A stretch of DNA of 64,000 nucleotides from positions 209,501-273,500 of the forward strand of contig NZ_JACVAK010000003.1 in the NCBI RefSeq assembly GCF_014851805.1, in the 5' to 3' direction. Numbering within the stretch: position 1 is the stretch's first letter; every line of letters begins with the position of its first letter. The DNA is from Pseudoxanthomonas sp. PXM02 (lineage in GTDB: Bacteria; Pseudomonadota; Gammaproteobacteria; Xanthomonadales; Xanthomonadaceae). This document shows, piece after piece, positions 38,594 to 60,924 of the stretch. The position numbers were made by a program, and so were the translations under genes. The notes under the pieces were generated by a model. The model searched no databases and was not told the origin of the DNA. It was given only the letters and a program-made list of their open reading frames with translations.

Positions 38594-38869
38594 TTACTTG
38601 AGGTACGAGCGGACCAGCGCGACGGCGGCATCGATGCCGGCCTCGCGCTGTTCGGGGGTGGAGGCCGGATGCGCGAACTCCTCGCGCAGATGGCTTTCCA
38701 GGATCTCCGACATCAGCCCGTTGACCGCGCCGCGCACGGCCGCGAGCTGCTGCAGCACGGGGGCGCAGTCGGCGCCTTCTTCCAGCGCACGCTCCAACGC
38801 ATCCAGCTGGCCGCGGATGCGCTTCACGCGCGTCAGCGCTTTCTTCTTGTCGGCGGGCGAGTGCGGCAT
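38594..38869 (-). CDS. frmR: Formaldehyde-responsive repressor of the CsoR/RcnR family
   Basis: 91-residue four-helix repressor. The mature N-terminal Pro2 and Cys35 (EEGADCAPVLQQLAAVRGAV), the two residues that formaldehyde cross-links in E. coli FrmR, are both present, as is a His at about 60. Located directly upstream of adhC. A G-tract operator (38884-38900) lies in its own promoter, so autoregulation and control of adhC-fghA are expected. Confidence 0.93.
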   Translation of the reverse strand: MPHSPADKKKALTRVKRIRGQLDALERALEEGADCAPVLQQLAAVRGAVNGLMSEILESHLREEFAHPASTPEQREAGIDAAVALVRSYLK

Positions 38870-38883
38870 GAGACTGATCCCGG

Positions 38884-38900
38884 ATAGTGGGGGGGAGTAT
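38884..38900. promoter_or_regulatory. FrmR-type G-tract operator
   Basis: ATAGT-GGGGGGG-AGTAT, a G-tract flanked by AT-rich arms 15 bp upstream of frmR, as in CsoR/RcnR/FrmR operators. Confidence 0.7.
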
Positions 38901-38948
38901 ATGGCGATCCGCCCGTCGGGGCAAAGACAGCCGACGGCCTGAGCGGAA

Positions 38949-39008
38949 GACCATAGTTGTGACCCAACGGCCCAACTATGGTCATTTCAGGTGGCTCGAA
39001 CTATGGTC
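38949..39008. repeat. Triplicate AACTATGGTC motif at the island edge
   Basis: Three exact 10-bp copies: inverted GACCATAGTT at 38949-38958, then direct AACTATGGTC at 38974-38983 and 38999-39008 (25-bp period). A TGT that could be a Tn7-type terminus begins at 38958. The spacing is like the TnsB-binding sites of Tn7-like ends, but no matching opposite end was found in the window. An operator for a lost gene is the alternative. Confidence 0.5.
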
Positions 39009-39150
39009 AAACACTGTAGAACGCCCGCGCTAAGCTCAGCCTTTCTACCTTTGGGGCAATCACGACCGAATGTGGAGGCCGCTTGGTATGCCATCTCGCG
39101 GCGAAGCGTGGGCGATGGGCCCCTCCCAAGCACCCTCCGGAGCTGTCAGG

Positions 39151-39569: not shown

Positions 39570-40901
39570 ATGAACTGCGATTGCGAGTTCTGCAAGTTTG
39601 ACTTCCCAGTTTCCCTTCCAGAGCACTTGATTGAATCTCTGCTCGCGGGAGAGTTGGTGATTTTTGCCGGGGCCGGCATTAGCACTGAGTCGAGCCGGGT
39701 ACTGAAGTACACCTTCTACGACGAAATCGAAGGCTTGGTTCCAGGGGCAGGTAGGTCGCTGAGCTTTCCGGAGCTCATGCAACGATTTGTAGATCTTCCC
39801 GACGGCAGATTGAAGCTACTCCAGCTAATTCGGAGGCGCTTCGAGCATATCGATTCATTTCCCGAGCTCAACATGTCGGCGAGTCGGTTCCATCGGGAGC
39901 TAGGAACGCTCTTTCTGGTGAATGAGATCGTAACCACCAATTGGGACACGTATTTCGAGACTCACTGCCACGCCACTTCGTTCGTAACTGACCCCGATAT
40001 CGCTCTTTGGAATGCAGTACGACGGAAGGTCTTGAAGATTCACGGTTCTATCCAGAATCTTGGATCCATTGTCGCAACTACTAGCGATTACGTTGCGTGC
40101 CTGACACGACTAAGTACTGAGCTGATTGGAAGCCAGCTAAAGAATATCCTTGCGACGAGGACGGTCGTCTTCATCGGCTATTCGCTCCGCGATTCGGATT
40201 TTCTCCAGCTGTATGGATTCGTAAAGCAGCAGCTGGATTCTTTGCACAGAAAGGCCTACGTTGTAACGCCTTTCGCCGAGGAAGCGACACGCCTAGAGCA
40301 GGAAGGCTTGATTGCGATTCGCACCGACGGAACCTTCTTCATTCGGCAGCTCAAGACTCACTTGGTTGCTATGGGGGCGATGATTCGGGACGACGTGTTT
40401 GACGCAGCAAGTAGACTCCTGGCTTTGGTCCGGGCGGAGCACACGAGGCTCCACGAAAGGGTAAAAATGGACCGTTTGCCAGAGCTTATCTACGCGGCCT
40501 CATATCAGGATGGACTCATGCACGCGCTCGATCGGGCGCTGCAGATGCAAGGCTCTGGGGAGTACTCGCATCCCTGCTACATCGGCGGAAAGGTTCGTGC
40601 GTACGAGACTTTGAAGAAGGAAAAGCGTTCCGCCAAGCGCTATGAAGATGTGGCGTACATCGAGGGCTATACAAACGGAATGGTGTTCTTGGCCGTCGCC
40701 AATACTGAAGACCGGCCTGTGAGGCCTCCGTTGTACTTCACCTTTGGGCAGAAATCCGATCTCTACAGCCTCACAAGCTTTCTACGCCTGTTCTCGAGGG
40801 GCTCTGTTCCGCACGAGGCGGCGCGCAAGCGTGCGCAAAGGCTTATCAGCAAGTTTGAGGATCCGCGCAGCGTTGAATTTCACCATCCGCCTTGGCTGTA
40901 G
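39570..40901 (+). CDS. SIR2-domain protein, probable NAD-consuming defence effector
   Basis: 443-residue protein with an N-terminal SIR2-like (SIR2_2) domain: NAD-binding LVIFAGAGISTES (residues 29-41), active-site VTTNWDTYFE with Asn124 and Asp126, catalytic His158 in LKIHGS, and VVFIGYSLRDSDFLQLYGF. It lacks the zinc cysteines of deacetylase sirtuins, so NAD hydrolysis is likelier. Residues about 265-443 match no domain I know. Stand-alone SIR2_2 proteins in genomic islands often stop phages by depleting NAD. GC is about 52 percent. It stands alone next to the tRNA-Glu scar. Function is inferred. Confidence 0.8.
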   Translation: MNCDCEFCKFDFPVSLPEHLIESLLAGELVIFAGAGISTESSRVLKYTFYDEIEGLVPGAGRSLSFPELMQRFVDLPDGRLKLLQLIRRRFEHIDSFPELNMSASRFHRELGTLFLVNEIVTTNWDTYFETHCHATSFVTDPDIALWNAVRRKVLKIHGSIQNLGSIVATTSDYVACLTRLSTELIGSQLKNILATRTVVFIGYSLRDSDFLQLYGFVKQQLDSLHRKAYVVTPFAEEATRLEQEGLIAIRTDGTFFIRQLKTHLVAMGAMIRDDVFDAASRLLALVRAEHTRLHERVKMDRLPELIYAASYQDGLMHALDRALQMQGSGEYSHPCYIGGKVRAYETLKKEKRSAKRYEDVAYIEGYTNGMVFLAVANTEDRPVRPPLYFTFGQKSDLYSLTSFLRLFSRGSVPHEAARKRAQRLISKFEDPRSVEFHHPPWL

Positions 40902-42418: not shown

Positions 42419-42589
42419 TGGCTCACCCCTCACAGTCGTCGATGGCGGGAGCATACCGGCCGTCGAGGGAGACCAGCAGGCAGTCTGATAATCGACTTGT
42501 GCTGGACCCGAAAGTCGCATGCTCCTTCCAAGCACCACCAGAAGCGCCAGCGCCGCGACCTAGTCCGGCACAAAGCGGGCGCTGTCTGC

Positions 42590-43921
42590 TCAGTTGCGCC
42601 GAACTAGGCTTCCCGGGGCAGTAATAGTTCCCGCCTCCAGCATCGCATGGCATCGTTCCCTAATCTCCCAGAAGGAGTCCACGATCGCGAGCTTCAGTTC
42701 CCGACCGAGCGCCCTATCCTGAATCGCTTGGCGTGCAAACCTTCGACGCGTCAGCGAGTCAGCCGTCAGCCTTCCTTCCATACCAGCCAACCTTGAGAGC
42801 TTTGCAAAAGCCGCATCGACACGCTGCTGCAACTCCTTCTTTCCAGACCTCGCAAGGCAGGAGACCCCGTATCGCCGCCAGTTCGCCGTTCGATAGCGAG
42901 CCTCAGTATGTTCGCTTAGACCAAGCTCCTGAGCTAGAAGCCATAGGGAGGGCAACGGCCGACTCTTAGGGGACTCTATTAGTTCACTGAGGAGAGTCTC
43001 GAACACTTGCGAGCGAAGCTTCATGCCATCGATTCTTAGATCAATAGGCTGGAAGGTCTCCCACATCGACAGGAAAGGCTTGGACGAGCCCCCTAGCGGG
43101 TCATGGAGAGCATCACACAGCCGGACACCCTGCAGCGCGCACATGTTAAGTAGGAGCTCGAAGTCGAGCGAAGGCGCATTTGTTGCAGACCCCACCCTGG
43201 CAACTACTTGCCTGGCGTTCTCAGATGCATCATCAGCCAACAGAATTCCCGTCAGGACTGACGATGCAAGCATCGTGAATGCAGAACCGTCCAATCTCTC
43301 TGAGGTCGGATTGCCACAGAACTCCACAATGTCGAGCATCTGCGTATGCGCCCAAGCATGCTCAGGCGACATCCTCGACCATTCTCCTTTCCCTCCCAGC
43401 GAAGCTCCGCAGTGAGTGCAGTCTCGCCTTGTGGTGTACGAAGACCTCCTACCTTGCCGGTGGCCGCACCTCTGGCATCTCCCAACAAGAACGCACTCAT
43501 GTAGCGGGCATCGCACCACAAGATGAAAGTGCCATGCCAACAGTTCATAGGAGGTGTCGTGATCCCAATCCTTCAAGCACACTGGGCACCAGCGCCACTC
43601 CCTTTGCACCAAGCCTCTTAGGCCGCGCTCAGTGATTCCGCCAAGGTTGTAGACAGTGCCACAGTGCAGACTATCGACGCCTGTCGCTCTCTTAAGGTCG
43701 GTGATGGACGATAGATACACATACCCTGGACCACAGATCGCCGAGACAGGAGGAGTTCCGCTTAGCTGGTAACCAGCTAAGACATCGCGCACCCGAATGC
43801 CGGCAACCCACGTAAGCCTCGCCAAGTAGTGATCGAGTGACTCAACTGCACTCGTGCCAAGGCCTCGCAACTCAAGGGGGGGTAGTGGCGTCCAAGAGTG
43901 TCCAGGCCCTGGGCTCTTCAC
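42590..43921 (-). CDS. tniQ: TniQ/TnsD-family target-selection protein
   Basis: 443-residue TniQ-domain protein. The N-terminal TniQ region has RTW-like RLTWVAGIRV and the zinc-binding cluster: Cys112 and Cys115 (WRWCPVCLKDWD), Cys138 and His141 (VRCPLHECVL), Cys149/152 (GRCQRCGHRQ) and Cys168/171 (DCTHCGASL). The C-terminal half is helical with a helix-turn-helix-like tail and is long enough to bind a fixed chromosomal target, as TnsD does. Its ATG overlaps the tnsC stop (ATGA). Confidence 0.88.
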   Translation of the reverse strand: MKSPGPGHSWTPLPPLELRGLGTSAVESLDHYLARLTWVAGIRVRDVLAGYQLSGTPPVSAICGPGYVYLSSITDLKRATGVDSLHCGTVYNLGGITERGLRGLVQREWRWCPVCLKDWDHDTSYELLAWHFHLVVRCPLHECVLVGRCQRCGHRQGRRSSYTTRRDCTHCGASLGGKGEWSRMSPEHAWAHTQMLDIVEFCGNPTSERLDGSAFTMLASSVLTGILLADDASENARQVVARVGSATNAPSLDFELLLNMCALQGVRLCDALHDPLGGSSKPFLSMWETFQPIDLRIDGMKLRSQVFETLLSELIESPKSRPLPSLWLLAQELGLSEHTEARYRTANWRRYGVSCLARSGKKELQQRVDAAFAKLSRLAGMEGRLTADSLTRRRFARQAIQDRALGRELKLAIVDSFWEIRERCHAMLEAGTITAPGSLVRRN

Positions 43922-44904
43922 TCCCAGAATTCCTTGATCTGAGATGACCGGGCAGAAACCGAACCAGCGGCCATAGCCTCCTCAAACATGTGGATGTCGT
44001 TCCACATGGTTTCGAGGTCGCTCTGGGCGTAGATAGAGCGCTCTACATGGGACCAGCTTATTCCTCCGCCACCTTCTTCCAAAGCGAGTGTCGACGCACG
44101 CTCAAGAAGCTTGTCCAGCTCTCCGATAACGCCCCCGGTGGCGGCAAGAACTTCCGCGTCGTAGCGCAGCAGCGCTCGAACATCACAGTTCGTGTAGTGC
44201 GAGGCACGTGAGCGGATCAGTGTCGCGAACGCCTGTCTATCCTCTGGCCGTCTCTCACTGTAGGGCGGCACCCAGATGACATCTACGCGACGCCTTAGCT
44301 CAGAGTGGATCGACCACATCCTCACTACTTCTGGAACGCCTGTCATGATGAAGCTTATGTTGGCCTCCTCAGCAAATGCCATCAGATGTAGCGTGTGATC
44401 GGTCGGCCGTTTATTTGCCCGATTCTTCAGAAACGAGTTCGCCTGATCGATTGATATCACGCTGCATGCTCTTGCTCGGAGCATCTGTTCGACACAGTCC
44501 CATGTGTCCGACTCAGTAAGCCTTCGCCCCTCTCTGGCGCCCCACCAGTCGCCCGCCGCTTCAAGTCCCTTCAGAACATCTGCCGGAAGCGTCGACTTTC
44601 CGTTGTCTTCAAACCAACGCAGGGTCGGCACACGCAACTGCTTGAGTAAGGACTTCGCCAGAGAGAAAGAGCTGAAGTACGACTCTGAAGGAAGTCGTGC
44701 GCTGCATTCAATGGCGGGGATCTTGCCCTTCGGCCAATGCTTTGGATGTCCATATACTTCCCGCATGACAGAGCGGCGAAGCGTGGTCTTTCCGACACCG
44801 GTGGGGCCGATTATGAATATCATTCGGCCCGGCATTAGATTGTCCAACGCAGCACCAAACCGCTTCCGTGGGCGGCTGTAGTGCGGATGAAGGGTAAGCG
44901 CCAT
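43918..44904 (-). CDS. tnsC: TnsC/TniB-family AAA ATPase
   Basis: 328-residue ATPase that relays target information to the transposase. Walker A is IIGPTGVGKTTLRR (residues 31-44), Walker B is CSVISIDQANSF with Asp153 followed by Gln instead of Glu, and arginine-finger candidates lie in SELRRRVDVIWVPP. It starts 3 bp after tnsAB and overlaps tniQ. The Asp-Gln Walker B variant may slow ATP hydrolysis. Confidence 0.9.
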   Translation of the reverse strand: MALTLHPHYSRPRKRFGAALDNLMPGRMIFIIGPTGVGKTTLRRSVMREVYGHPKHWPKGKIPAIECSARLPSESYFSSFSLAKSLLKQLRVPTLRWFEDNGKSTLPADVLKGLEAAGDWWGAREGRRLTESDTWDCVEQMLRARACSVISIDQANSFLKNRANKRPTDHTLHLMAFAEEANISFIMTGVPEVVRMWSIHSELRRRVDVIWVPPYSERRPEDRQAFATLIRSRASHYTNCDVRALLRYDAEVLAATGGVIGELDKLLERASTLALEEGGGGISWSHVERSIYAQSDLETMWNDIHMFEEAMAAGSVSARSSQIKEFWE

Positions 44905-44907
44905 GGC

Positions 44908-47370
44908 TCAGCCCTCACTGTCAAAGAGGGGACCATCTAGATCTGGCTTACGCGTCTTTTCCTTTCCTTTCCCTGGTGTATTCTTCGAACAAATCGCATC
45001 GTCGACCTTCGCCAGGCTATTCGTTCTAGCTTGCTCAATTCTGTCGTGGAGCTGCTTCCGAAGTAGCCTCTTAACCTCTCTACTCAGCTTGCGCGCAGTG
45101 GGTGCGTAGCACATATCAAAGATCCTCTCTAAGCGATCCTCGCTCGCCACACTCTGTACACGTCGATGGAAAGCTTTTAGCCAGCGGCCACCGATCCTGG
45201 TGTATAGGATTGCCGGATCCTCACAGTCGATTCGCGCTTCTTCAACTTTTCGGCGCCCCTTAATCTCGGCTTGGAGCTCCATGCTGGTATAGACCCCCTC
45301 CTCGATCCTGATCGATCCTCGTGCAGTCAGCTTGATAGCCCCTCCTAAGGGTATAGCCGTAGAAAGAAGGAAAGCGTCATTGATCTCTCGCTTTGCGCCC
45401 ATGCAGCCAAATTGATCCAAGCTTGCTTGACGCCGCTCAATGGGTGAAAGGTTGTCACCACCCGGTGAGTGAGGCATATCGCCATAGACGTACTTCTCGA
45501 TGAGCTCGTTCACCTCAAGAAAGCTCATTCTCGCCGTCTTGAGACTCTTGTACTTTCCGTCAACTGATCTCCCCTTGCTGTCCGGAAGGGTGCTTCCAAA
45601 TAGGCGGTGCGACACCTGAGTGTTTGCATACTTGTTTGCTGACTCGGCAAGTTGATTCCATGCACTCCCAGCGGTTGGCGAGTAGCGCACGGATATCGTT
45701 CCCTCACAGAACTTCTCCATCCACTTCGACGTGTTCTCCGGCCCTCGGTCGACGTGAATGGTTCTTGGAAGGAAGCCGTGACGGCGTACGATCTGGCGCA
45801 TCAAAATCGCCAAGCCCTCGGTTCTAGAAGGGCCGAAGATCAAGACGAATGCGAGTGGATAGCCAGAAGAGCCATCGATCGCAATGTAGAAAGTTGCACT
45901 GAGATGCAGTATTTCGCCGGTGGATCCGTCGACCATTCTCATATCGATCGGCGTTGAATCGATATGGGCAATCTCACCATAGCCAAGTGGTGCTGCGGAC
46001 GTGTACCTCGGGTCCGCGTTCCTTCGGACACGCTGGAACGACCGCATGCCCCCAGACGCGAGTGCATGCCGGTCGGGGTTCTGCTCCCTTATTGCTTTCA
46101 TAAGCGCCGTGAGGCCGGCAACTGGAATGCCCAGTCGCTCACACTCGCTGGAGTAGATGTGACATGCGTCTCTTTGGCAACTTACCCGCCCTCTGTTCCA
46201 GTACTCATCGACAACTCTCCTTCTAAGAGCGACGTACTGGTCGGACAACCTCGGAATCTTGTTGCCAGAGGCGTGGTACCGAGTCAGACATGCGGCAAGG
46301 GCTGACTTACCCTCACTCCTCGCCTGCTGAACGATCTTCGCGAGCCGCTTAACGCTCTTGGTCGGCGCAAGATCCAGCCCACCGAGATACCGATCAACCC
46401 TCTCCAGGCGCAGTCTTGCCTTCTCTAGATCTGTCCCTGTTGCGGTCAGTGTTTCATCGCCGAGTTCCTCAAGCGATCTGAGCCGGTCCGACACTTCGGC
46501 CGCCACAGCGTTTGCATACACCTCAGCTTGGGTTAGCGTCGGAAAGAGATAGAACTTCGATTGCTGGCTGATGGACACTGACTTGCAAGGTCCGAATGCG
46601 TAAGCCTGCGCCAGCATCAAGAGTGCGACTCTACTGGTGAAGCCAGCCGATTTGTTTTGAAGCTCAGCAATACTCTGAGGCCTCTTCTCAATGAGACGGC
46701 TTGCCGTCTCACAGGCTCGCACCTCGTAGTCGGTGGGTTCTAGGCGTTTTGCATCGTAGATTGCGGTCAGATTCTGCAGATAGATGGCCGGGTGTCTTGG
46801 CCCTACCCAAACTTTGAACTGGATTCCTCGTGCTTTCGCCCACTCCTCGTAGGGCCTGCACGTCCATCCTCCCTGTACTTGAGACCAGTCGGGATGATCC
46901 TCGCCGATCGCCTTGTGGAGCCACTCTTCCTGCTTGCACTCAACGAGCTCGATTGCGCACTTTCTGATTACGAGAAAGTCGATGTGAGCAGAGCTTACGT
47001 GTGTTCGTCCATTCGGTCTTACCCTGGTTATCCCTACGCACGGCACCTGTGTGTAGTAGCCCAAGACATCGGGGTCTTGCTCAAGTTCGTAGGCATGAAT
47101 GAGCTCACACGTGTGGCTCTCGACCGTTCTATGACGCCGGTTCTTTACGGAGTCGAACCTGGTTACCACGTTGGTCAGCGCGCCAGCGCCTACACGCTTT
47201 TGGCACGATCCATTGATTGCTTCCTCCACCCTTCGGACATTCTCGTGCGAAAGCCCCGCTGCGGCGTAGATGCCACGGCGGGTCTGCTCATCTGGTCCAC
47301 CAATCTCCATCTTGTCCACAACGACCTCCCACCGGCCTAGCCGGCTTAGGGCATAGGGAGCCCGTGCCAA
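44908..47370 (-). CDS. tnsAB: TnsA-TnsB fusion transposase
   Basis: 820-residue fused transposase. Residues about 78-190 are a TnsA-like restriction-type nuclease: Glu95 (AYELEQDPDVLGYYTQ), Asp131 (SSAHIDFLVI) and Glu144-x-Lys146 (ELVECKQEEW). Helix-turn-helix segments follow at about 245-440, then the DDE integrase core with Asp471 (IAHIDSTPID), Asp541 (TIHVDRGPENTS) and Glu576 (WNQLAESANK), and a basic tail. In Tn7 these are two proteins that cut opposite strands. The start may instead be Met21 (47310). The gene has low GC and unlike-core codon use. Confidence 0.88.
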   Translation of the reverse strand: MARAPYALSRLGRWEVVVDKMEIGGPDEQTRRGIYAAAGLSHENVRRVEEAINGSCQKRVGAGALTNVVTRFDSVKNRRHRTVESHTCELIHAYELEQDPDVLGYYTQVPCVGITRVRPNGRTHVSSAHIDFLVIRKCAIELVECKQEEWLHKAIGEDHPDWSQVQGGWTCRPYEEWAKARGIQFKVWVGPRHPAIYLQNLTAIYDAKRLEPTDYEVRACETASRLIEKRPQSIAELQNKSAGFTSRVALLMLAQAYAFGPCKSVSISQQSKFYLFPTLTQAEVYANAVAAEVSDRLRSLEELGDETLTATGTDLEKARLRLERVDRYLGGLDLAPTKSVKRLAKIVQQARSEGKSALAACLTRYHASGNKIPRLSDQYVALRRRVVDEYWNRGRVSCQRDACHIYSSECERLGIPVAGLTALMKAIREQNPDRHALASGGMRSFQRVRRNADPRYTSAAPLGYGEIAHIDSTPIDMRMVDGSTGEILHLSATFYIAIDGSSGYPLAFVLIFGPSRTEGLAILMRQIVRRHGFLPRTIHVDRGPENTSKWMEKFCEGTISVRYSPTAGSAWNQLAESANKYANTQVSHRLFGSTLPDSKGRSVDGKYKSLKTARMSFLEVNELIEKYVYGDMPHSPGGDNLSPIERRQASLDQFGCMGAKREINDAFLLSTAIPLGGAIKLTARGSIRIEEGVYTSMELQAEIKGRRKVEEARIDCEDPAILYTRIGGRWLKAFHRRVQSVASEDRLERIFDMCYAPTARKLSREVKRLLRKQLHDRIEQARTNSLAKVDDAICSKNTPGKGKEKTRKPDLDGPLFDSEG

Positions 47371-47708
47371 GCGCCGGAAGCGCTTGACAGGGCGTTCAAT
47401 AAGGGGGAGATTTCGGACTTAGCGATAGTGTGCGAAATCGGAGAGCCCGCTCGGTGCCAGCCTTGCGGGCTTTCTTTTTCCCCGCCGACGGAGTACCTCA
47501 GCTCGTATCCACCCTATCCTCCTGTTTTTCCTAAGCTTTTCCCAGCGCCAGTTGGCTCGACAACGACCATTGGACGGCGCGGCCCGATGCCAAGAGAGCA
47601 GCCGCGAGCAGCAGGCATTTCGTGTTGCCTGCAGTCGAACCCAGCCTAGTTGCAAAGCTTCAGCTTCCGCACCCAGAATTAATTCGCCCTTTTTGGTGCA
47701 TTTATTCG
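47371..47708. other. Intergenic region between divergent tnsAB and an unknown gene, with hairpins
   Basis: 338 bp. It holds AAGCGC-CGGAA-GCGCTT at 47378-47394 beside TTGACA, a stem GATTTCG (47409-47415)/CGAAATC (47433-47439), and a plus-strand terminator at 47444-47479. This might be a small structured RNA or the tns-proximal transposon end; no coding region is convincing. Confidence 0.4.
47444..47479 (+). terminator. Rho-independent terminator upstream of tnsAB
   Basis: AGCCCGC / GCGGGCT stem (7 bp, 14-base loop) followed by TTCTTTTT. It points away from tnsAB and no plus-strand gene ends just before it, so it may close a short RNA or block readthrough from flanking DNA. Confidence 0.6.
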
Positions 47709-48476
47709 ATGAATACGGTGCATTCGGAGCTCGGTGATTTGGCCCCTGGTCGACGGGGGCGCCCACCCAGGTCAAAGGTCGATTTGTTTAGGGAGCGCGT
47801 ACTCATGACGGTGCTCGCACAGTTGCCTAGTGATGCACCGCAGTGCCAATCCGACCGAAGCGCTGCGCTTTGCGGGGCCCCCCTGACTCGAAAGCGCGAG
47901 GTCCGCATCGCTGATCACTTTCCAGTCTTTGCAGAAGTGTGTCGATGGCCGCTCCACTTGCTGGAGACGAGAAGCTTGAAGCCATCGAGGCTACGCGGGC
48001 TCATCGAGACCTACGAGTGCGAACCCTCTTACCTGCTATCGCACCGGCGTATCGAACTGCCCGCCTCTAGCGACGGACAAGTAGTCTTCTTTCCGGCAAG
48101 AGATCCTGCATCACTTCTTTGGAGGGGTGATTTGTACGGATACTTAGCGCTTCTAACGCAGTTTCGGTTGTCGGAGTTGAACGGCGACGTGGCAACGCAG
48201 TGGACGACGGCGAGGTATCTGGCTCGCTCCCTTCCCGGCGCGTGTCAGCATCCCGCCATTGCTCGGAACGCGCGGACGCTGATTTCTCTAACTATGCGAT
48301 TGCTTAGACTCCTTCCTCATCCGTGCATCCCCGTAAGGATTGATCGTCATCAAACGCTCGCACTCGTACGCAGCGGATTGAGCTACAGAGCCGGCTCTAC
48401 TCCTGACCCTCTTGTTCACTACACCATGCGTACGTGCACGTCCGGCGAAGCGACGCTTCTGATTCCCCACTGTTGA
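47709..48476 (+). CDS. Hypothetical protein with AT-hook-like N-terminus, divergent from tnsAB
   Basis: 255-residue protein, family not recognised. Near its start GRRGRPPRSKVD resembles an AT-hook (RGRP core), suggesting DNA binding. The middle has LLWRGDLYGYLALLTQFRLS and the end is Cys-terminated (LLIPHC). No ribosome site precedes ATG 47709 clearly; the start may be upstream (TTG 47622). The promoter has TATTC-GAT-GAATA over the start, a possible self-control site. Low GC ties it to the Tn7-like block. Confidence 0.5.
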   Translation: MNTVHSELGDLAPGRRGRPPRSKVDLFRERVLMTVLAQLPSDAPQCQSDRSAALCGAPLTRKREVRIADHFPVFAEVCRWPLHLLETRSLKPSRLRGLIETYECEPSYLLSHRRIELPASSDGQVVFFPARDPASLLWRGDLYGYLALLTQFRLSELNGDVATQWTTARYLARSLPGACQHPAIARNARTLISLTMRLLRLLPHPCIPVRIDRHQTLALVRSGLSYRAGSTPDPLVHYTMRTCTSGEATLLIPHC

Positions 48477-48925
48477 AAGATAGTGAGTGCATATCGCTTC
48501 GTAAAAGCTGAGAGCACCAAAGACCTTCTCAGATCCACGCAACGCCCTTGACGAACTCTAGACGCGTGACTTTTAAACCACCCTGCACCTGTCGACGACC
48601 CTGAATCTCAGGCATCCGATCGCGTTCCATTCGCTGGCGTCCGGCGGCGTCTCGCCGTTGGCCATGACCAGCGCGCCATCCACCTGCTTGATTGCAACGT
48701 CTTCAGCTGGATCGGCCCCAGGCCTCCCGCCGGAGCGATGTCCACTCCTGGCTGCTAGCTGAAGCGGGAGCGGCATGTCCGCTTTCGGCCAGAAGCGGAC
48801 ATTTGACAGCGCAGAGATCCGGCCAGCCCCAAATACGGTTGCTACGCACAACTAGTTGCCGGAAATGGCTCGTTGGCGGACGCCGTCCACAGCGAGCCGT
48901 CAGACTGGTTTCAGACCACAGGGCT
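48477..48925. other. Non-coding stretch with palindromic repeat
   Basis: 449 bp with no credible intact gene. A minus-strand open frame (48573-48851) includes the NVRFWPKAD peptide produced by the palindrome at 48775 and then PAEDVAIKQVDGALVMANGE, perhaps a gene remnant. This is the right boundary region of the Tn7-like block. Confidence 0.5.
48775..48802. repeat. ATGTCCGC palindrome, copy 1
   Basis: 28-bp palindrome with arms ATGTCCGCTT and AAGCGGACAT around TCGGCCAG. Same family as 51148, 56484 and the IS30-interrupted copy at 58705/59956. Confidence 0.75.
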
Positions 48926-51200: not shown

Positions 51201-51827
51201 CTATGCCTCGGTCTGCTCTGCCAGCGCAAGGGCATCATCCACTTCGACCCCCAGGTAGCGGACGGTACTCTCGATCTTGCTGTGCCCAAGCAGCAGCTGG
51301 ACGGCGCGCAGGTTCTTGGTACGTTGATAGATGAGCGATGCCTTGGTGCGACGCATGGAATGCGTACCGTAGCCCACTGGATCCAGACCGATACTGCGCA
51401 CCCAGGCCTTCACCAAGCGGGCGTACTGGCGCGTGGAGAGGTGGGTTGAGCCTCGCTGCCTGCCGGGGAAGAGGTAATCGTCGAGGCCAAGCTTCTGACT
51501 ATCGATCCAAGCGACCAATGCCTCTCTAGTCTGCGGCGTTATCTCAAACTGGACAGGACGCTTTGTTTTGCGCTGGATGACGCATGCTCTTGAGCCAATG
51601 TGCATGCCATGTGCGACGTCACGGACCCGCAGCCCAACCAGATCACACGCGCGAAGCTTGCTGTCGATGGCGAGATCAAAGAGCGCCAACTGCCGACTAT
51701 CGCCCTTGAGCTGAAGCCTGACTCGAATCGACCAGATCTCCTTGAGCTTTAGGGGCGCCTTCTGTCCCACAAGCTTGCCTAGATTCCAAGCAGGACGTGC
51801 CGCTGAGCGGCCTGAACTTCGCTTCAT
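51201..51827 (-). CDS. Tyrosine recombinase, catalytic domain only
   Basis: 208-residue integrase-type recombinase. Catalytic residues visible: Arg in DSKLRACDLVGLRVRD, Lys in QRKTKRPVQF, His-x-x-Arg in THSMRRTKAS, His in LLGHSKIEST, and Tyr in VRYLGVEVDDAL. The N-terminal DNA-binding domains of phage integrases are absent. ATG 51827 follows GGAGAAAGCC. Short recombinases like this occur in xanthomonad islands; whether it moves any neighbouring DNA is unknown. Confidence 0.85.
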   Translation of the reverse strand: MKRSSGRSAARPAWNLGKLVGQKAPLKLKEIWSIRVRLQLKGDSRQLALFDLAIDSKLRACDLVGLRVRDVAHGMHIGSRACVIQRKTKRPVQFEITPQTREALVAWIDSQKLGLDDYLFPGRQRGSTHLSTRQYARLVKAWVRSIGLDPVGYGTHSMRRTKASLIYQRTKNLRAVQLLLGHSKIESTVRYLGVEVDDALALAEQTEA

Positions 51828-51948
51828 GGCTTTCTCCAATCCCGAGGTGGGATGGAGAGGCTCTAACTGCCTCTGTGTCGCCTCAGTTAAGAGGTGCTAG
51901 GGAGCTCAGCTAGGTCACTTTCGACTCAAAGGCACATCGCACGATGTA

Positions 51949-56568: not shown

Positions 56569-57489
56569 CTATTTTAGGCCGTAGTACCTCAAGAGCGCTT
56601 CCTTGATTACGTCCGTGGCGACGGACAAGCCGATCTTCCAGGTGCCACCAGCAGCCTTCTTGAGATTATTGAGAAGCCAATCTTTGACCTTGGGTCCCAT
56701 CGGCTCGGCCACACTCTCAGGTTTCTCAGAAGAGGCCAAATCTGCGAGAGCACCTGCATCATCTGCAGGAATGCCGGCCTGAACTAGATACTGAGACAGT
56801 GCTTGTTTGTTGCCCGTGTCGATCGAGATAGAAACGACGGCGCCGCTTTGGGCCGACACAGAGGTGTAGTTGCCGTAAATGATCTGTTGCGCGATCTGAG
56901 TGGTAACCCCTGCTGCACTCCCGGATAGATCGCCGGGGTTTGCTAGTGAAACGTTTGCCGCCTCTGGAACAGACTTTTCAATCTCAAGTGTCAACTCAAG
57001 AATTCGATTCAGAACAGCGTGCCTAATGGCGGCCAAGGATGCGCGCGAGATCGTACCGGTGACTGAGTTGCAGGCGTAGTCCTCATAGACCTTTCCCTGC
57101 AAGAGAAGAATGAGATTCGAAGCTTCAATCTGCAACGAGCCACCTTTCTCCGAGGTGGACAGCAGCTCATCTACCGCAGCGATGCTTTGCCGCATTTCAT
57201 AGCGAGTCCACTGTCTGCCAGCGTACTTTTCGATCAGATAGGGTGAAATCGGCGCATTGTTGATTCCTGAGCCGAACGGGCCAGAGAAGGTGGCTCTGTA
57301 GCTAACCCCTAGGATGCGGTAGTCGGGAACCTCAACTTCTTGTGGGTACCCCTCCGACTCATGCTTTACCCATTCTGCAAGCGACTCACTACCGAGTCGC
57401 GCAGCTAGCATTCTTAGCTTGAGTAAAATTGGTGCGATGTCCGACTGCTCCTGAAGAACAGCGCCTTGAATGTCTGCAAGAAGTCCCAC
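56569..57489 (-). CDS. AbiTii-domain protein, putative abortive-infection effector
   Basis: 306-residue protein. Its N-terminus (LLADIQGAVLQEQSDIAPIL; LRMLAARLGSESLAEWVKHE; SEGYPQEVEVPDYRILGVSY) matches the AbiTii domain found in phage-defence islands. Residues about 160-220 are rich in small polar residues (AANVSLANPGDLSGSAAGVT), and the C-terminus ends in an amphipathic helix (WKIGLSVATDVIKEALLRYY) that could contact membranes. Low GC. It lies 78 bp downstream of a membrane-protein gene on the same strand. Activity of AbiTii proteins is not well established. Confidence 0.7.
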   Translation of the reverse strand: MGLLADIQGAVLQEQSDIAPILLKLRMLAARLGSESLAEWVKHESEGYPQEVEVPDYRILGVSYRATFSGPFGSGINNAPISPYLIEKYAGRQWTRYEMRQSIAAVDELLSTSEKGGSLQIEASNLILLLQGKVYEDYACNSVTGTISRASLAAIRHAVLNRILELTLEIEKSVPEAANVSLANPGDLSGSAAGVTTQIAQQIIYGNYTSVSAQSGAVVSISIDTGNKQALSQYLVQAGIPADDAGALADLASSEKPESVAEPMGPKVKDWLLNNLKKAAGGTWKIGLSVATDVIKEALLRYYGLK

Positions 57490-58509: not shown

Positions 58510-58704
58510 GCTCCCCCCTGAAACCTGGGCCTGATGCATAACTACCTAATAGCCGGATCCCTGGCTCCGGTTATACGGCTTCTCCACAGCGCACCATATG
58601 GCGCGCTATCCCCTTGATATGGCTCGATCTTAGGGCGACTGGGTCCGGCTAACAAGCCGATGTATAACCGGACCCAGCAGGACGCAGAGCGTGCGCTTAG
58701 GCGA

Positions 58705-58712
58705 ATGTCCGC
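58705..58712. repeat. ATGTCCGC palindrome, copy 4, left half (interrupted by IS30 element)
   Basis: ATGTCCGC here and GCGGACAT at 59956-59963 are the two arms of one palindrome. Removing the insertion and one GGTCG rejoins them around TTCGGGTCGATT. Confidence 0.7.
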
Positions 58713-58721
58713 TTCGGGTCG

Positions 58722-59947
58722 CGGATTCATATGATCGATGCAACACACGGATAGCTGCACAAGCAGCGGGAGTGTTGCAGATGAAGCGCAGGAAGAGGAT
58801 CTACTACACCGACACCCAGAAGGCACTGATGTGGGATCGCTGGCAGCAGGGCGAGTCGCTGCACCAGATCGCATCCTTGTTCGATCGGCACCATAGTTCG
58901 GTGCGGAACATCCTGGCCGAGCATGGCGGGATTCGTCCGCCGGTGCGGCGACGATCTCCGAGGGTGCTGAGCCTGGTCGAGCGCGAGGAAATCTCCCGCG
59001 GCCTGGCGGCGGGACGGTCGATCCGCACGATCGCTTTGTTGCTGGGTCGGGCGCCATCCACGGTCAGCCGCGAGATCGGGCGCAACGAAGGCGCTGAAGG
59101 CTACCGCGCCAACCAAGCCGACCTGGCTGCCTGGGACCGAGCGCGGCGCCCCAAGACCTGTAAGCTGGCGCTGCATCGAGCCTTGGCTGCTCGCGTGGCA
59201 GAGAAGATCCAGCGGCAGTGGTCGCCTGAGCAGGTGGCCGGCTGGCTCAAACGCACCTATCCCGATGATGCGAGCCGTCAGGTGTCCCACGAGACCATCT
59301 ATCGCACGCTCTATATCCAGTCGCGCGGGGCGCTGAAGCAGGAACTGCTCGCCCATCTGAGGCGCACGCGGGCGATGCGTCGCTCACGACATCACACCCA
59401 GAAGACAGAGAACCACGGCCGGATTGCTGACACCGCCTCGATCAGCGAGCGGCCGGCCAGTGCCGAAGATCGGGCCGTGCCAGGGCATTGGGAAGGCGAC
59501 CTGCTGTTCGGTGACCGGAACAGTCAGATCGCTACGCTGGTGGAGCGGCAGACCCGCTACCTGATGCTGGTGAAGGTGGCAGGCAAGGACACCGAGACCG
59601 TGGTCAACGCGCTGATCAAGAACGCACGTCGCCTGCCGAAGCAGCTGTACCGGTCGCTGACCTGGGATCGGGGCAAGGAGATGGCGGCACACCGCCGCTT
59701 CACCTTGGCCACGGACATCCAGGTCTACTTCTGCGACCCGCATCATCCTTGGCAACGCGGTACCAACGAGAACACCAACGGCCTACTACGGCAGTACTTT
59801 CCGAAGGGGATCAATCTGGCCGATGTCACGCAGGCCAAGCTGGACGCCGTTGCACGCCAGCTCAACGAACGACCACGCAAGACGCTCGGCTACGAGACAC
59901 CGGCAGAACGATATCGACAAACTGTTGCGTCGATCGGTTGAATCCAA
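58722..59947 (+). mobile_element. IS30-family insertion sequence
   Basis: 1226-bp complete element. Imperfect terminal inverted repeats run from GGATTCATATGATCGATGCAACA at the left to its counterpart at the right (read inward GGATTCAACCGATCGACGCAACA). A 5-bp target duplication GGTCG flanks it (58717-58721 and 59948-59952). It carries one transposase gene and has landed in the loop of a palindromic repeat. Confidence 0.85.
58781..59941 (+). CDS. IS30-family transposase
   Basis: 386-residue DDE transposase. N-terminal helix-turn-helix motifs (LHQIASLFDRHHSSVRNILA; ISRGLAAGRSIRTIALLLGR) are followed by the catalytic acids: Asp in VPGHWEGDLLFG, Asp in LTWDRGKEMAAH and Glu in GTNENTNGLLRQYFP. The stop codon TGA lies inside the right inverted repeat. 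Intact reading frame, so probably active. Confidence 0.93.
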   Translation: MKRRKRIYYTDTQKALMWDRWQQGESLHQIASLFDRHHSSVRNILAEHGGIRPPVRRRSPRVLSLVEREEISRGLAAGRSIRTIALLLGRAPSTVSREIGRNEGAEGYRANQADLAAWDRARRPKTCKLALHRALAARVAEKIQRQWSPEQVAGWLKRTYPDDASRQVSHETIYRTLYIQSRGALKQELLAHLRRTRAMRRSRHHTQKTENHGRIADTASISERPASAEDRAVPGHWEGDLLFGDRNSQIATLVERQTRYLMLVKVAGKDTETVVNALIKNARRLPKQLYRSLTWDRGKEMAAHRRFTLATDIQVYFCDPHHPWQRGTNENTNGLLRQYFPKGINLADVTQAKLDAVARQLNERPRKTLGYETPAERYRQTVASIG

Positions 59948-60362: not shown

Positions 60363-60656
60363 CTACTTGTCTTTCGCGCTATAAAGCTCGTCAACAGCAG
60401 CGATTGCTTGCTCTGCCCCGCTAGGAGACTTCGCGTATCTGCGGATGCAGGCCTCTAAGGAGGCTCGATCAGAGGAAGATAGTGAGTCACGCTCAATGAA
60501 CAAGCGGGTGCTTTGCGCCTGGATGGCGCCACACAAAGCGTCGTCCCGATTTGGCTTGTCACGTTCTTGCCAAAGCTGGCTCGATAAAAGCGCCATATGC
60601 CCTGAAATGAGATCACGGGCCAGTTCGTAGAGCACCCTGTTTGATTCGCGCACCAT
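60363..60656 (-). CDS. Small helical hypothetical protein
   Basis: 97-residue helical protein (MVRESNRVLYELARDLISGH; ends ELYSAKDK). ATG 60656 has a near-ideal AAAGGAGATCGCG ribosome site, so I reject the longer start at 60746. Function unknown. Last gene of the low-GC zone. Confidence 0.65.
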   Translation of the reverse strand: MVRESNRVLYELARDLISGHMALLSSQLWQERDKPNRDDALCGAIQAQSTRLFIERDSLSSSDRASLEACIRRYAKSPSGAEQAIAAVDELYSAKDK

Positions 60657-60924
60657 CGCGATCTCCTTTCTAGAACCTCGTAGCCTCATTCTACGTGGTT
60701 CCCGCCGCCCCCCATGGCGGGCCAGAAAGCCCCCCGGACTCAACAATGATCCGGCCCGTGGCCAAAGTTGGATCCGTCAGAGCCGTTCAGGGCAAGACTT
60801 TGCCTTTACAGCGGGTCCCAACATTGCCCCTCCGATCAGGCCGATCCGGACCCGCCGGCGCGTGTCCGCTGTGGGTGCCTTCCTTCGCATACCACCCCAT
60901 CGCCTTCCTCAGGAGCTCCATGCC

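Follow-up and report, generated by a model that had tools for sequence, protein, structure and literature searches.

A Tn7-like transposon of Pseudoxanthomonas that probably homes on the frmR operator region and duplicates 4 bp of its target

Tn7 homes at a fixed distance on attTn7, at the 3' end of glmS, and spares the target gene; its right end, by convention the end upstream of the tns genes, faces the target, and a 5-bp target-site duplication (TSD) is called characteristic of Tn7 and all its relatives in a 2024 review (PMC11406308). PmcCAST, a type I-B2 transposon associated with clustered regularly interspaced short palindromic repeats (CRISPR), combines a TnsAB fusion protein with TnsC and TnsD or TniQ and uses a tRNA site. 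Tn6022/TnsF elements are Tn7-like insertions in comM with a TniQ hub, a tyrosine-recombinase-derived protein, and TnsF as selector, for which TnsA and TnsB are listed separately (PMC10293859). Here we analyzed a 64,000-nt stretch of Pseudoxanthomonas sp. PXM02 (contig NZ_JACVAK010000003.1, positions 209,501 to 273,500 of the forward strand; hereafter the window, in whose coordinates positions are given), where a Tn7-like element spans 38940-60838. It shares with Tn7 the Tns logic, fixed-distance homing and a spared target gene, but it sits at an operator on the 5' side of that gene rather than at a 3' end, presents its left rather than its right end to the target, and is flanked by a 4-bp instead of a 5-bp TSD. 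From sequence comparisons we consider it highly probable that this is a complete, probably functional cut-and-paste transposon whose TniQ homes on the frmR operator region at a fixed distance, and that its relatives do likewise on other boxes.

The original prediction had described a Tn7-like module of three open reading frames (ORFs) at 42590-47370, and our analysis recovered them as described; all lie on the minus strand. The largest (44908..47370) encodes 820 residues when read from its TTG, but the aligned starts of relatives favor the ATG at residue 21 as the likely start. Its Pfam hits, TnsA-like N at 5.5e-4 and rve at 8e-6, are both under their cut-offs. A nine-sequence profile that includes the window's own protein matched PmcCAST TnsAB (9bw1) with an E value of 3.3e-60 in two colinear stretches covering most of its length, and these colinear matches settle the predicted fusion of a TnsA nuclease with a TnsB DDE transposase. 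The catalytic residues proposed earlier largely stood: Asp131, Glu144, Lys146, Asp471, Asp541, and Glu576 show no variation among the nine aligned TnsABs and are kept in a four-sequence alignment with two cyanobacterial TnsABs. Glu95 did not fare as well, being kept in the four-sequence alignment but not invariant among the nine. Glu84 and Glu89 are invariant in both, and the first acidic residue of the nuclease is likelier to be Glu89 (or Glu84). At the Glu89 and Asp471 positions, 9bw1 carries Ala, as against Glu and Asp in the cyanobacterial TnsABs, which fits our inference that 9bw1 is a catalytically dead construct.

The product of the adjoining ORF (43918..44904) is a TnsC AAA+ ATPase, as predicted, with Pfam matches to TniB (1.1e-6) and AAA_22 (5.5e-10) and a colinear match to PmcCAST TnsC (8fcu). 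The third (42590..43921) encodes a TniQ/TnsD protein of 443 residues, the presumed target selector, which is TnsD-sized, scores just over the cut-off of Pfam TniQ (3.5e-6), and matches the TnsD and TniQ structures of PmcCAST (8v32, 8fcu). Absence of Cas genes had been taken to mean that targeting must rest on TniQ. No Cas protein was found in 10 proteins scanned with Pfam, NCBIfam, and PADLOC or in 10 further ORFs scanned with Pfam (one of them outside the element), small ORFs and a CRISPR array not having been searched; TniQ is thus the likely selector, as a best inference rather than a necessity. Among those same ORFs, and in contrast to PmcCAST, the Cascade cas genes of type I-B2 are missing, and in place of a tRNA-homing TnsD we found a site at frmR in a window devoid of tRNA genes.

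The element extends far beyond the interval first cited. Both junctions were read: the termini TGAGCGG.. (38940) and ..CCGATCA (60838), of the TG..CA type, enclose 21,899 bp and have GGCC on each side (38936..38939 and 60839..60842), with end-matrix picks concurring. Repeats presumed to be TnsB sites occur at both ends, namely three GACCATAGTT copies on the left (38940..39010; at 38949 on the plus and at 38974 and 38999 on the minus strand) and degenerate repeats of the same kind on the right (60720..60838, minus strand). The empty-site comparison that the original prediction had proposed was provided by the congeners G284 and G301, which join frmR straight to the sequence at window ~60833-60855; together with junction reading, it gave the two ends. 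The host genome (4.34 Mb) holds one such TnsAB. In a further congener, G206, TnsAB is 93% identical, and DNA similarity to the window takes in the core as far as 39008 and beyond that just 42574-48502, so the cargo of the two elements differs. An alternative view of the GACCATAGTT repeats as recombinase sites was dropped, paired ends and duplication recurring in G206, G117, and G271.

The TSD departs from the 5 bp that had been expected. In all ten independent element pairs, the 4 bp outside the termini are equal, as against five equal bases in none of the ten at these termini and in at most two when either terminus is shifted by up to 3 bases. These pairs were chosen from junction reading (window, G206, and G271), first under a 4-bp filter and then as repeat clusters without it (G319, G296, and G057), or with the aid of equal flanks (G322, G627, G481, and G523). 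As flanks had thus guided the choice of some pairs, the ends were re-picked blind with a leave-one-out matrix that ignored flanks and also left out a close partner (window/G206, G481/G523); the same two ends came out as top hits in nine of ten elements, and the longest equal flank was exactly 4 in all nine. When lengths of 3-6 were tried on 17 contigs, length 4 was best in all five with a pair scoring above 30 (G627, G481, G523, G319, and G322), one length-3 pair reached 30.7 (G627), and the sole length-5 pair scored 13.6 (G324). The empty ntrB site (L204) has AAAG once. Outside the ten pairs stand G117 (two ends but no TnsAB match at E 1e-3), six unpaired or weakly paired elements (G324, G528, G582, G047, G220, and G180), G321, which occupies the same site as G319, and G637 and G659, with 4-bp GGAA and CTTT assigned by eye. 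A motif-free de novo search for ends failed to recover the known ones in two of four positive controls (window and G057) and gave no standout pair in seven distant elements. We file the element as a divergent Tn7-like variant in which homologous machinery would act with a different stagger.

The host gene at the attachment site is frmR (38594..38869, minus strand), encoding a formaldehyde-responsive repressor (NCBIfam NF008464, 141.4 bits against a cut-off of 133). Between this gene and the left terminus lies the palindrome TATACTCCCCCCCACTAT (gene strand; 38884..38901, minus strand), which we take to be the FrmR-type operator/promoter. Its distance to the insertion point is 38 bp in both the window and G206, 37 bp in G117, and 35 bp in G271, and the left terminus lies 70, 70, 69, and 69 bp from the frmR ATG, respectively, although the sequences between operator and terminus are unlike among the four insertions. 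G271 belongs to another genus, and its TnsAB is 38% identical. Within the genus, an frmA-frmR DNA query matched in 38 of 38 genomes, in some over frmA only, and a true left end was present in 3 of 29 scanned loci with frmR, after two further hits lacking TG had been dropped.

We then sorted 18 left flanks by target: frmR (4), ntrB (7), ompO (2), padR (2), gntR (1), lysM (1), and MFP (1). Names were assigned by models for FrmR, OmpO/Ax21 (G627), and PadR (G481), with NR(II) as best match but under its cut-off, and by eye for the G220 and G523 partners, GntR, LysM, and MFP. All 18 flanking genes have their 5' end facing the element, and glmS-like targeting of a 3' end was dropped on this flank evidence. 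An operator-like box lies 35-42 bp from the insertion in 16 of the 18, be it the FrmR operator, the NtrC box of ntrB, or a box in the OmpO, PadR, or GntR promoters, evidencing insertion at a fixed distance from an attachment site. For the NtrC site a fixed consensus was scanned, TGCACY-N5-GGTGCA, presumably that of NtrC. The best match falls at 39-42 bp in all seven ntrB insertions (six independent, G319 and G321 occupying a single site) and agrees in 10-12 of 12 letters, as compared with at most 8 letters in the 10 flanks with other targets; G324 and G528 have a second, weaker, start-proximal site (9/12) at 57 bp, their best ones being at 40 and 39 bp. Among 30 Stenotrophomonas loci inspected by eye, six are occupied (G321, G319, G659, G637, G634, and G638), all 39-40 bp from the box, and four of these are not among the seven insertions. 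Several ntrB insertions (L203, L205, L207, and L210) lie inside a palindrome with many matching sites across Stenotrophomonas genomes; G637 occupies another place of this repeated palindrome at the same box distance (within one base), and G638 keeps the distance in unrelated local sequence. The PadR box is at 39 bp in both insertions.

In the mechanism that we propose, the TnsB part of the fusion would bind the repeats at both ends and cut and join the 3' ends with a 4-bp stagger, while the fused TnsA nuclease would cut the 5' ends to yield a simple insertion, with TnsC as the presumable bridge to TniQ/TnsD. The latter would select the regulatory region before frmR, that is, operator/promoter DNA rather than a coding 3' end, and the left end would be set ~38 bp past the operator and 70 bp from the start codon, leaving gene and operator intact. 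Relatives would apply the same ruler to the NtrC box of ntrB and to the PadR, GntR, and OmpO promoters. The sequences themselves display the ends, the duplication, the empty site, the fixed distances, and the conserved catalytic residues; activity, the order of these steps, and reading of operator DNA by TniQ itself are what we infer.

Several observations weigh against this account. As regards the duplication, the blind matrix ranked the right end of G322 only 11th (its first-ranked candidate gives two equal bases), so that this pair rests on its equal flanks, and the G117 flanks differ in one of four bases (TCGG/CCGG). As regards the ruler, two of the 18 flanks (lysM and mfp) have no box, boxes were chosen by eye after the insertions were known, with a fixed-consensus scan for the NtrC site only, and in G057 a simple pattern matched at 32 bp, the full NtrC-type site being at 41. 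As regards the selector, TniQ phylogeny and target do not correspond cleanly. In the tree of 23 TniQ proteins, of a kind that the original prediction had called for, window and G206 group together (100/100) and G271 falls elsewhere; the best tree demands two changes for frmR and four for ntrB, and well-supported branches alone at least one and at least three, respectively. A single origin of frmR homing may be compatible with the latter branches, and the tree would imply either an old ntrB homing from which others switched or repeated gain of recognition. Moreover, the TniQ of G271 has only 313 residues, and frmR may therefore have been chosen by another copy than the present one.

The frmR insertions by themselves would equally suit a TniQ that reads 5' coding DNA or another promoter element, with the operator merely conserved nearby, given that their distances to the ATG are as constant as those to the operator. 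Other targets separate the two: the ntrB start codon lies 48-58 bp off in five of the seven insertions and 74 bp in G324 and G528, though the choice of start is uncertain, with the NtrC-like box steady at 39-42 bp, and in the two ompO insertions the ORF starts lie 235 and 172 bp away, a shift of 63 bp, with the box at 40 and 41 bp. We thus regard recognition of coding DNA as unlikely. Somewhat less likely still, in our view, is a selector that recognizes the operator-bound host regulator (FrmR, NtrC, PadR, or GntR) instead of naked DNA. Such a contact would accommodate one target being common to different TniQ lineages, the regulatory nature of the targets (frmR, padR, and gntR encode regulators, and ntrB a regulatory kinase), and TniQ residues 298-432, which may have a known fold but gave no clear match to solved structures. 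However, OmpO is not encoded by a regulator gene, each target would demand a different regulator contact, and the TnsD of Tn7 is reported to bind DNA directly (PMC2918618). It is very improbable that the tyrosine recombinase encoded within the element (212 residues with a catalytic domain; 51201..51839, minus strand) built the island with the tns genes as mere passengers: relatives occur near two other elements, the stretches fetched for G057 and G180 showing 73% (over just 95 residues) and 69% identity, but G206, G271, and G296 share ends, repeats, 4-bp duplication, and fixed distance with no homologue in their fetched stretches at E 1e-5. The element resembles Tn6022/TnsF in having both TniQ and a protein of the tyrosine-recombinase kind, but it differs in the TnsAB fusion and the insertion site, and we take its recombinase for cargo rather than for a selector.

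Homing on operators by TniQ would go along with an orientation opposite to that of Tn7. The gene common to each group is found beyond the left end, on the side of tniQ, this being frmR in the window, G206, and G271 and ntrB in the paired elements; right flanks differ within the frmR and ntrB groups, except that those of G319 and G321 begin alike because these share one site. Left-end-to-target orientation was compared in these two groups and assumed for single targets. TnsAB matches were found in 20 of 297 genomes of the family and 30 of 398 of the order, the own genome counted in each, and in 3 of 369 in a class-wide draw, again own included, the other two being distant (22-27%). Querying with the G321 TnsAB retrieved matches in 15 of 91 genomes of the genus to which its source record, Stenotrophomonas maltophilia, belongs. 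A single-sequence search of genome contigs found no TnsAB relative, and an alignment-based one found 10 loci, of which two match distantly and in part (metagenome-assembled genomes [MAGs] of Chloroflexi and Opitutia). Near members were found in Stenotrophomonas, Lysobacter, Tahibacter, Dyella, a Lysobacteraceae bacterium, and a gammaproteobacterial MAG. Whether these elements form a separate Tn7-like branch, characterized by TnsABs above 30% identity in only one order here, operator homing, a 4-bp stagger, the left end to the target, and a TnsC often devoid of the Walker B glutamate, appears to us an even question; in its boldest form, TniQ would recognize or mimic an operator-bound regulator. 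In the literature searched, mostly open-access and without supplements, which makes absence weak, we found no paper joining Tn7-like elements to frmR, none on a 4-bp target or 4-bp duplication with TnsB, and no description of attachment on operators.

The TnsC of the window has Walker A GPTGVGKT and Walker B SIDQ, with Gln replacing the Glu of the Asp-Glu pair found in PmcCAST. This replacement, pointed out in the original prediction, is common to near relatives: among 30 TnsC proteins, near-duplicates included, the residue is Gln in 16, His in 4, and Glu in 10, so the glutamate is missing in 20, the window's among them. The window's closest relatives are among those with Gln or His, and the OmpO and PadR elements among those with Glu. 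The glutamate is also lost in some type V-K elements, and its mutation in TnsC has opposite effects in different systems (PMC11406308). One element of Stenotrophomonas sp. VV52 (L092 12406-14667) has two TnsC genes in tandem, each encoding an Asp-Gln Walker B, and the arrangement recurs in G637 and G659.

Beside tnsAB, a divergent gene (47622..48476, plus strand) is conserved in the nearest members, with relatives next to TnsAB yielding 10 strong and one weak match. Its product has no significant Pfam, PHROG, or Protein Data Bank match, and a search with its low-confidence predicted structure (mean predicted local distance difference test 59.6) gave no match below E 0.001; we can only guess at a role in regulation or as an accessory to targeting. 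Besides the recombinase, cargo includes a defense-like SIR2-domain protein (39570..40901, plus strand; Pfam SIR2_2 4.3e-19, partial PADLOC matches to PDC-S25, ThsA, and Dsr1), an AbiTii defense protein (56569..57489, minus strand; Pfam AbiTii 3.5e-41), a transposase with HTH_38 and rve domains (58691-59941) that we presume to be IS30-like, and an MFS transporter with regulators nearby. Elsewhere, two TniQ genes flank TnsABC in one element (L098 7695-9035 and 13446-14855; G582 alike), possibly providing two targeting routes. The G117 element (L065 1162-11022), which measures ~9.9 kb, occupies this frmR site too and has its two ends but no TnsAB match; it may be a remnant or have been moved in trans. 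A small gene adjoining the right end (window 60363-60746; L070 1295-1616; L065 10709-11024) looks common to window, G206, and G117, as judged by BLAST for the latter two and by eye for the window.

Duplication of 5 bp, a trait regarded as Tn7-wide, thus seems to give way to 4 bp within this clade, and the underlying strand-transfer geometry is testable by comparing natural TnsAB fusions. Similarly, a TnsC that naturally lacks the catalytic glutamate bears on the need of ATP hydrolysis for target choice. If true, operator homing would represent a new kind of attachment site and a source of new site specificities, by which defense cargo could sit beside regulated genes without breaking them.

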